Shown: piece by piece, positions 32,401 to 54,201 of the stretch
How the letters are laid out: each line of letters begins with the position of its first letter
Numbering within the stretch: position 1 is the first letter of the stretch
DNA from: Branchiostoma floridae
Lineage: Eukaryota > Chordata > Leptocardii > Amphioxiformes > Branchiostomatidae
Assembly (NCBI RefSeq): GCF_000003815.2
Contig: NC_049980.1
Location: 35,026,132-35,090,131, forward strand
Direction of reading: 5' to 3'
Length of the DNA: 64,000 nucleotides
Position numbers and translations under genes: made by a program
The notes under the pieces: generated by a model
The model's input: only the letters and a program-made list of their open reading frames with translations
The model's database searches: none
Told to the model about the DNA's origin: nothing

Positions 32401-35400
32401 AGTCTGCATTCTGTTTCCGGATCAAATTACAAAACATGCTGGTCGTTGTAGAAGACTGCACAAAATGGGCTGTTCCAAAAAATAATTGAGAAGGGGGGGT
32501 GGAAGAGGTCTCAATCTAGCTTCTGACTCAACCCCCCTATCCGATCCAGATTTCTTTTACCCAACCCCCCTATCCGATCCAATTTCATCATTTTGACCCA
32601 ACCCCCCTATCCGATCCAAATCTTCATAACCCAACCCCCCTATCCGATCCAAATCTTCCTAACCCACCCCCCCATCCGATCCAAATCTTCCTAACCCAAC
32701 CCCCCTATCCGATCCAAATCTATCTAACCCAACCCCCCATCCAATTTCCAAATCTTCCTGACCCAAACCCCCTATCCGATCCAAATCTTCATAACCCAAC
32801 CCCCCTATCCGATCCAAATCTTCATAACCCAAACCCCCCATCCAATCCAAATCTTCCTGACCCAACCCCCCTATCCGATCCAAATCTTCCTGACCCAACC
32901 CCCCTATCCGATCCAAATCTTTCTAACCCAACCCCCCTATCCAATCCAAATCTTTCTAACCCAACCCCCCTATCCCAACCCAAATCTTTCTAACCCAACC
33001 CCCCTATCTGATCCAAATCTTTCTAACCCAACCCCCTATCTGATCCAAATCTTCATAACCCAAACCCATGAACTTTCATGCTTATGGCTACATAGTTCAT
33101 TGACTGATTGAGACAAGAACAATTATCGTAAGTTTAAGCATGACAGCAACTTTATTTTTAGACATTATTTACAAGGCGTACACTGTAATTAACCAGTTCT
33201 TAATCATAAAAGTCCTTAATCTTAAAAAAGTGTCATGTATGTGGATGACAGAGAATGGGGCGAAGTAATCAATGTTTGAAAAAGAAGGAATTTGGGTATG
33301 AAAGCTAGATGATACAAGTGTCAAAACAGATTTTTTGAAACAAAAACATTTCTTCTGCAACAGAACTAGTGTGGAAAAACCTACCATTACATTTAAGTAA
33401 ATGATAGAAAAAGCATTGCCTTACTAACTACTAACAACCTTTATTTAGACATTACTTACAAGACCTTTGTACAGTATGTATAGATAAAAATATGGACTCA
33501 AACAGTCACAGATAGTATCAAAAGACATACTAGTATCTAACAAGCAATTCACCAGGTTCAAACGTATGGCCTCCATGACCTTGATCAATCATAACATAAA
33601 AAAACAAAAAACAAATGAGAATAAGAAAACACTGTGATTACTGTTGTGCTGCTCTAACACTCATTCCACAAGCTTCTGTACGATAAGGCATTTGATCTGG
33701 CTCGGCTTGATGACTCTTTTTTTTACACATTTTCTGATAACCTCTACAACTTTATCTAACACCGGGGAACCTTCCGTCTTGTACCTTTGGAGTTGAATTT
33801 CAACCCGCAGTTTTGTGCCTGGGAGGAGAGCTACCTTTAGACCGTGGAGTTGATCTAACAGTGGTGTGGGCATGTCTGCTGAGTCTAAGGTGCTCTCCTG
33901 ACTCCATTTCTTGTTGACCACGTCCTGCATGTCCCTTTTGCTCATCCCCTGAGCTGACTGGTCATGGGCCACCCTATTCCACAGCTGCCGGTACTTGCTC
34001 AGTTTGGGTGAGCAGTCTGTAATGGGAAAAATACAGTGCTTAATTCCAATTGCATTAATTTGCATTGACTATGGTATAATGCTCGCAGTTTTTCTTTCTA
34101 ATTTATTTATTGGTTCTTGAATTACCATATGATCAGTGGATGATATTGATATCAATCCTGTGACAGACAAATTAAGCTAAAGCACACTTTAGACTGACAA
34201 CAGTTACATGGTTGTCTGCAACAGTTCCAGTGACTGTATTTTTACACCGTCAAAATAGTAGTGTGTTTTTTTCCGCAAACCATTGTGTCACCTGTCCCCA
34301 GACCTGTTGTTCTCATATGGTGTAGAATATATAGAAAACTGGCCAAGGAGGAGTGTATATTTACCACCCTGGTGGCCAATGGACACCGCTCGGCTACCTA
34401 CACGATCTGCTTTGAGATCAGGACCTTATACAAGAGCGATAAAATCAACACCAGTCAACATTTCACTCAAAGAATTCACTGAATGGCACTACCATTTAGG
34501 ATGATACAGGCATTGCGATACTGTCACTTGGATTGTTAATGTTTGATTATATAGCCTCAACTGGCTGAATCTTCATTAAATTTTTCAGTATTTTGAAGCT
34601 TGATTCATATATAAAAAAAATGATCTCCTCACTCGCAATGTCATCCGGACTGTAGACATGGAATTTGGACTCCCACTTCCTCTTTCCAGTGAAGNNNNNN
34701 NNNNNNNNNNNNNNNNNNNNNNNNNNNNNNNNNNNNNNNNNNNNNNNNNNNNNNNNNNNNNNNNNNNNNNNNNNNNNNNNNNNNNNNNNNNNNNCTTTGA
34801 CTGACACTAAGCTTGCTCTTCCGTGCCTTGCTCTAAGTCCGTGCCTTGCTCTTCCGTGCCGTGCTCTTCCGTGCCTTGCTCTTCCGTGCCGCGCTCTTCC
34901 GTGCCGCGCTCTTCCGTGCCGCGCTCTTCCGTGCCGCGCTCTTCCGTGCCTTGCTCTTCCGTGCCGTGCTCTTCCGTGCCTTGCTCTTCCGTGCCGTGCT
35001 CTTCCGTGCCTTGCTCTTCCGTGCCGCGCTCTTCCGTGCCGCGCTCTTCCGTGCCGCGCTCTTCCGTGCCGCGCTCTTCCGTGCCGCGCTCTCCCGTGCT
35101 GCGCTCTCCCATGATGTGCTGTCTAGCTTCACCAGTGTTGGGCTTTCCCGCATCAACACTCTGTTGTGTTGTCTCCATCTGAAACGAGACCAAAAGCAAT
35201 TCATGTTAAGTATAACTATTATTCCTATGTTATAATATAAAAGTCAGATAAGACATTAGACAAGTTTGACTTATATTGACCGATGTGTATGTGTTCAAGC
35301 AGTATGTGAGATTTTTGTTGCAATGTTTCTATACAAGTATTACAACTGATAATATCTGTTTAGTGGTTACATTTCATTTTCAAGTCGACATGTGGGTGCA

Positions 35401-54201: not shown

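Follow-up and report, generated by a model that had tools for sequence, protein, structure and literature searches.

A giant, probably autonomous cut-and-paste transposon of amphioxus with a transposase apparently related to ISAzo13

Eukaryotic transposable elements of 15 kb and more are known from Polinton/Maverick, Teratorn and enlarged En/Spm (PMC6431247; this and the other papers cited here are drawn on for their accessible parts), and no ISAzo13/Zator-like giant is mentioned in the accessible part of that source. Zator elements, which are described with a 3-bp target-site duplication and as kin of ISAzo13 (PMC10045372), are counted in the ITm group (PMC10045372; PMC7386202). In Ginger1 the DDE transposase is linked with a protease domain, OTU or Ulp1 (PMC2836005), and, for elements carrying OTU, Ulp1 or VTD domains (PMC2836005; PMC9741609), the authors of PMC9741609 suggest that proteins needed for transposition are thereby protected from degradation. 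Here we describe a 21.5-kb element at positions 32467-53978 of a 64,000-nucleotide stretch of the Branchiostoma floridae genome (the window; NC_049980.1, positions 35,026,132 to 35,090,131), which shares the size class of the known giants and differs from them in transposase and gene set. Most probably it is an apparently autonomous cut-and-paste DNA transposon that duplicates AWT (AAT or ATT) at its target and encodes a 2,875-amino-acid (aa) protein with a DDE (DD43E) domain of an ISAzo13-related animal lineage. It lies in an intron of a gene that we take to be COPS2, a name returned by no search.

The ends of the element are formed by the following features:

32464..32466, no strand: left target-site duplication AAT, read directly outside the left terminal inverted repeat (TIR)
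32467..32510, + strand: left 44-bp TIR, starting GGGCTGTTCC; the same ends are found elsewhere in the genome
32529..33067, + strand: left subterminal array, 33-bp unit, 16.2 copies; the C-rich strand reads inward
53279..53929, + strand: right subterminal array, 33-bp unit, 19.8 copies; same strand as the left array
53935..53978, - strand: right 44-bp TIR, GGGCTATTCC reading inward
53979..53981, no strand: right target-site duplication AAT, directly outside the right TIR

Compared as inverted repeats, the TIRs agree at 41 of 44 positions, as the original prediction of 44-bp inverted termini with AAT at both edges had stated, and no inverted site reaching 30 of 44 positions against the left TIR arose in five mononucleotide shuffles of the window. 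The prediction had also named matching subterminal arrays; the 33-bp arrays do match, and the correction concerns their orientation, which is the same on the + strand at both ends. Exact copies of the core CCCCCCTATCC, all in forward orientation and none in reverse, number 10 in the left array and 16 in the right one, and none lies between the arrays. Because both arrays run in the same direction, the ends are asymmetric and do not form one long inverted structure, and two kinds of end can be told apart, a GGGCTG end with the array C-rich inward and a GGGCTA end with the array G-rich inward. Such a direct orientation of the arrays at both ends (32529-33067 and 53279-53929) is in itself unusual. 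The subterminal units carry C6-C7 runs on one strand, so that G-quadruplexes might form on the complementary strand. Since two runs of N (34695-34794 and 52943-53215) lie inside the element, its exact length is uncertain.

Searches of the 513-Mb B. floridae assembly revealed the same ends at many other places. A 24-base TIR pattern, with up to three mismatches allowed, occurs at 71 sites (the two of the window included) versus two for a reversed-pattern control, and a 241-bp left-end query, whose counts are lower bounds, gave at least 70 matches, many of which represent repeat units of a single array, with full left ends on contigs C2, C3, C5, C9, C12 and C16 among the matches listed. AAT or ATT precedes all 20 ends fetched for flank reading (each with at most two mismatches to the pattern), AWT making up 4.2% of the window trinucleotides. 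Furthermore, we read 12 paired copies from end to end; ten measure 291-457 bp, and the other two, which are also represented among the 20 ends, 5,904 and 9,131 bp. Identical 3-bp AAT/ATT flanks were present in ten of the 12 pairs (11 of 13 counting the window element), the remaining two showing one flank mismatch each (GTT/ATT and ATT/ATC), and identical 4-bp flanks in none of the 12. As AAT and ATT are complementary to each other, the element has AWT as its target, which may be compared with the TWA target of Harbinger. The short copies (L070-L079, 291-457 bp), which resemble miniature inverted-repeat transposable elements and are non-autonomous, have GGGCYGTTCCAAAAAATAA ends and identical AWT flanks in eight of ten cases. 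The 5.9- and 9.1-kb copies (L080 on C16 and L081 on C3, the latter with long N runs) are approximately 98.5% identical over their longest shared blocks and possess the same two kinds of end, GGGCTG and GGGCTA, as the window element. The locus thus shows what is expected of a cut-and-paste TIR transposon, namely multiple copies, shared inverted ends and duplications of fixed length; the earlier reading of a single mobile element holds, and the further copies with the same ends that were proposed as its check exist. A second complete 21.5-kb copy was not found among the copies read, most paired copies being short.

Between these ends, the main gene and its domains are arranged as follows:

41040..41234, + strand: exon 1 of the main gene, first ATG at 41040
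42635..42916, + strand: exon 2, SGNH/GDSL-hydrolase-like (GDSQLR, GTNN); PF13472 E 7.6e-5, below the curated cut-off
43900..44253, + strand: exon 3, rest of the SGNH-like domain; PF13472 E 0.01
44533..44625, + strand: exon 4
44910..52613, + strand: exon 5, 2567 stop-free codons, then TAG
44966..45557, + strand: low-complexity 18-bp tandem array coding PTSAD(S/Q) repeats
45735..45941, + strand: ubiquitin-like domain; PF00240 E 1.9e-4, 21.5 bits versus a curated cut-off of 25.4
46832..47799, + strand: in-frame 483-bp tandem duplication in the transposase exon, 97% matches
49959..51299, + strand: stretch modelled as DDE transposase domain, RNase H fold
50418..50420, + strand: D1, aa 1837 of exon 5, in SKDAK
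50808..50810, + strand: D2, aa 1967 of exon 5, in DNG
50940..50942, + strand: E, aa 2011 of exon 5, in HSKRNYVE, 43 residues past D2
51729..51824, + strand: SAP domain; PF02037 E 1.9e-5, above the curated cut-off

The gene (41040-52613) comprises five exons with GT-AG borders and encodes 2,875 aa without a stop, its exon structure being anchored on the amphioxus protein P0036 (LOC118431000); an intact DDE-type gene, as had been proposed, is therefore present in the element. P0036 matches PF13472 at E 4.2e-8, versus the weak single-exon matches of window exons 2 and 3, and it is the only database relative of the N-terminal module within the length limits of the search. PDB matches of the ubiquitin-like stretch are ubiquitins, the strongest E values coming from polyubiquitin chains and single ubiquitins giving E 0.1 to 1.7. 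The C-terminal stretch looks Tudor-like (by eye only). A USP-like deubiquitinase domain was suspected by eye at about aa 360-640 of exon 5, on motifs that we presumed to be characteristic (a Cys box, CxxC pairs and GHFAAKV...YDYDD) and that no search supported: Pfam returned only a weak DUF678 in the window protein and DUF2647 in P0036, the stretch alone had no PDB sequence match, its neighbouring part matching ubiquitin, and a two-sequence AlphaFold2 model was unusable (pLDDT 33.2). We keep this domain as a guess.

In the predicted model, the DDE stretch adopts an RNase H fold with D, D and E on the expected elements, as in the mariner-like ITm group, and appears to resemble Tc1/mariner transposases, the best Foldseek matches among those listed being mariner-type. 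The triad is conserved in the family (n = 146; the window protein and 145 of 148 fetched proteins, P0036-P0038 being left out), and of 29 stretches in the genome that match the domain, the window copy is the sole one open across its whole length. Homologs from corals, a sea anemone, Clytia and mussels are among the best 120 of 172 matches listed. Some relatives carry OTU-like N-termini, a likeness to Ginger1, which differs in its 4-bp CCGG/CCGT duplications, TGTNR ends, Gypsy-integrase-like transposase and length of 2.6-7 kb (PMC2836005), the window element having AWT duplications and GGGCT ends.

The size of 21.5 kb and the presence of several domains would also suit an endogenous DNA virus or a virus-transposon hybrid, e.g., Maverick or Teratorn, and one viral Foldseek match below 0.001 (TM 0.22/0.33) is a putative transposase of Tetraselmis virus 1. 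Yet Pfam matches in the stretches scanned are SAP, SGNH-like and ubiquitin-like domains together with weak, low-complexity or sub-cut-off matches, none to a replication or capsid family, and none of 19 pattern stretches in viral contigs was confirmed as a relative. The duplication is moreover of 3 bp and not of the 6 bp that Maverick generates. We regard a viral origin as extremely improbable.

A second gene, oriented divergently from the main gene, is indicated near the left end:

33664..34068, - strand: open frame, putative last coding exon of the second gene; 8 matched genome stretches including itself
34547..34694, - strand: probable further exon, C14 counterpart FTSGAKWTSR..YSPDQIASE (by eye); adjoins the N run 34695-34794

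The frame at 33664-34068 has no Pfam match. On contig C14 it has a counterpart (C14:10933630-10933920) that lies approximately 2.7 kb inside a TIR preceded by ATT, and P0036, the main-gene product there, is encoded at 99.9% on this contig. Over aa 86-1839 the C14 open frame shares approximately 41% identity with the window protein, and an assembly gap takes up part of the C14 DDE region; LOC118431000 (L082, C14:10910001-10920000) is a transposon gene model whose truncated C-terminus coincides with an assembly gap. One end of the C14 copy was located, and the subterminal sequence there differs from the left array of the window. A diverged giant relative has thus retained both genes in their relative orientation, together with the TIR core.

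This conservation bears on a composite origin, in which the TIR pair would belong to a non-autonomous or composite element that captured a DDE-gene element unrelated to it, the gene not mobilising these ends. Such an origin would fit the 5.9- and 9.1-kb copies, whose ends match those of the window element and which show no match to its protein; but in the diverged C14 copy the two genes are oriented to each other as in the window element, with a same-core TIR after ATT approximately 2.7 kb beyond the second gene, and the TIR pattern scan lists within the window element no sites of this type other than the two termini. We consider a composite origin improbable.

A related end, GGGCTATTCCAAAAAATAACTGAGGAGAGG with TTGGACTGGA repeats, was observed in six closely similar copies, all after AAT or ATT, and these ends are close to the C14 end. 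They are possibly a recently active sister family:

L040, C5:16458684: related-end copy
L041, C5:19163824: related-end copy
L042, C6:1504410: related-end copy
L043, C7:6013322: related-end copy
L044, C11:7619876: related-end copy
L045, C17:17529533: related-end copy

The original prediction could match the element to no named superfamily. Profile comparison points to a probable kinship of the transposase with ISAzo13, and its predicted fold is mariner-like. A first family alignment (38 matches minus P0024 and P0036-P0038) gave a weak hhalign signal against five ISAzo13 proteins (score 33.8, E 0.0023; 20 shuffles at or below 23.2). We then compared the family with a larger set of 11 ISAzo13 proteins from 10 of 12 fetched loci, including L053-L056 (L057 and L086 were dropped as they had no annotated transposase), and obtained scores of 55-62 versus at most 22.2 in 35 control proteins, with one of 200 shuffles outlying and six of the 11 single sequences at E 0.008 or above. 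Among the single sequences L055, L084 and L085 stand out, and L083 and L088 do so weakly; for a 6-sequence ISAzo13 alignment none of 100 column shuffles exceeded the real score (maximum 24.2). The similarity extends across the DDE profile with the triad aligned, motifs of the type SxDAK, HDW/HDF, DNGP and YHSKxN are shared, best in L055, and the D2-E spacing is similar (42 in ISAzo13 versus 43 in the window family). Differences lie in the architecture, the first five annotated ISAzo13 proteins having 407-601 aa, whereas the window protein, with its SGNH-like, ubiquitin-like and SAP domains, has 2,875 aa.

The ends and target site alone would also suit a Pangu-type PHIS (PIF/Harbinger, IS5-like) transposon grown large, as Pangu has 5'-ANT-3' duplications, which include AWT, and TIRs usually starting with AG or GG (PMC4482050), here GGG. 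As to the transposase, no IS5/Harbinger Pfam family is matched at E up to 1, two IS5 transposases reached 20.4 and 21.8 in hhalign, no better than non-transposases (Pangu itself was compared by description), and the best fold matches are mariner-type. Furthermore, Pangu elements average about 3.5 kb (PMC4482050) versus 21.5 kb here. We consider this assignment very unlikely.

More weight attaches to a known Zator element that is merely large, because the 3-bp duplication (AAT/ATT in ten of 12 pairs and at the window element) and an ISAzo13-related transposase are those described for Zator (PMC10045372), with which the element was compared by description only. Against it stand, as weak evidence, that PF07592, the Pfam ISAzo13 family, is unmatched by the window protein and the 15 family members scanned, that the same model finds no convincing Zator-like stretch in the genome, and that Zator, ubiquitin and transposase were not found together in the open-access literature searched. 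In addition, large size, domain fusions and a second gene are unmentioned for Zator in the accessible parts of PMC10045372 and PMC7386202. We regard a known Zator as rather doubtful. As PF07592 is blind to the family and Zator proteins were compared by description only, we speak of a new giant lineage related to ISAzo13/Zator and not of a proven Zator, the transposase being probably related to bacterial ISAzo13 and kin of Zator, with a predicted mariner-like fold.

Several results weigh against the reading as an autonomous transposon with an ISAzo13-related transposase. The other 28 DDE stretches of the genome are partial or contain stops, and the 5.9- and 9.1-kb copies lack any match to the transposase protein; with this single open copy and these gene-less copies, recent mobility of the whole 21.5-kb unit is unsupported. 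Under a strict pattern, one or more of the three catalytic motifs are missing from 29 of 146 family members. The Foldseek matches have a large rmsd and low TM-scores, about 0.25 when normalised by query length, and in the VIA structure comparison retroviral integrases tie with Mos1 among the matches listed. The hhalign controls were single sequences, one IS3 of only 107 aa and a Tc1 piece of 196 aa among them, and six of the 11 single ISAzo13 sequences gave E 0.008 to 0.17. For the 11-sequence ISAzo13 alignment, the real score was exceeded, without explanation, by one of 100 column shuffles (138) and likewise by one in a separate run (136). PF07592, which recognises L055 (1.1e-76) and L084 (1e-92), found across the B. 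floridae genome one weak stretch (E 0.375, L051, Tc1-like by eye) besides failing on the family. None of 46 pattern stretches in genome contigs was confirmed as a relative of L055.

The simplest account remains an autonomous, unusually large element with an ISAzo13/Zator-like transposase, an AWT target, asymmetric ends and two genes. Its transposase would bind the TIRs and the same-strand subterminal arrays, would cut the element out by a presumed DDE chemistry, and would insert it where AAT/ATT is cut with a 3-bp stagger, from which the AWT duplication would result. The element may still be active today, and the ubiquitin-like and SGNH-like domains may take part in transposition, a ubiquitin link being suggested by likeness to elements with OTU, Ulp1 or VTD domains.

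With respect to the host intron, a peptide resembling COPS2 exon 2 is encoded on the - strand (approximately 31350-31541), and exon 1 was placed by eye at approximately 54148-54201, which agrees with the predicted enlargement of intron 1, approximately 22.6 kb with the element and 1.1 kb without it. Positions 1-31000 of the window contain many minisatellite arrays, e.g., 3385-4624, 13097-13902, 14603-15319, 21216-21780, 23851-24483, 26817-27177 and 29296-29821, the last two sharing a 49-bp unit.

Taken further, we see almost, if not quite, an even chance that the element represents an undescribed superfamily-level animal lineage in the ISAzo13/Zator wing of ITm, with an AWT target, at least two genes and a length above 20 kb in at least two diverged amphioxus families, whose transposase was repeatedly joined to components of the ubiquitin system (OTU-like N-termini in a number of relatives from invertebrates and, in amphioxus, a ubiquitin-like domain and a possible papain-like peptidase). 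No description of it was found in the open-access literature, a scope that leaves most subscription papers and Repbase outside, so that a prior description is possible. Typical animal cut-and-paste elements measure a few kb, whereas this one spans 21.5 kb, carries a transposase gene of 2,875 uninterrupted codons and explains why an intron of a conserved gene is approximately 20 times longer than without it. It offers a testable system for the handling of very long cargo by DDE transposases, the repeated gain of ubiquitin-system domains and the choice of AWT targets, and may represent a transposon lineage of cnidarians, molluscs and amphioxus that has been overlooked.
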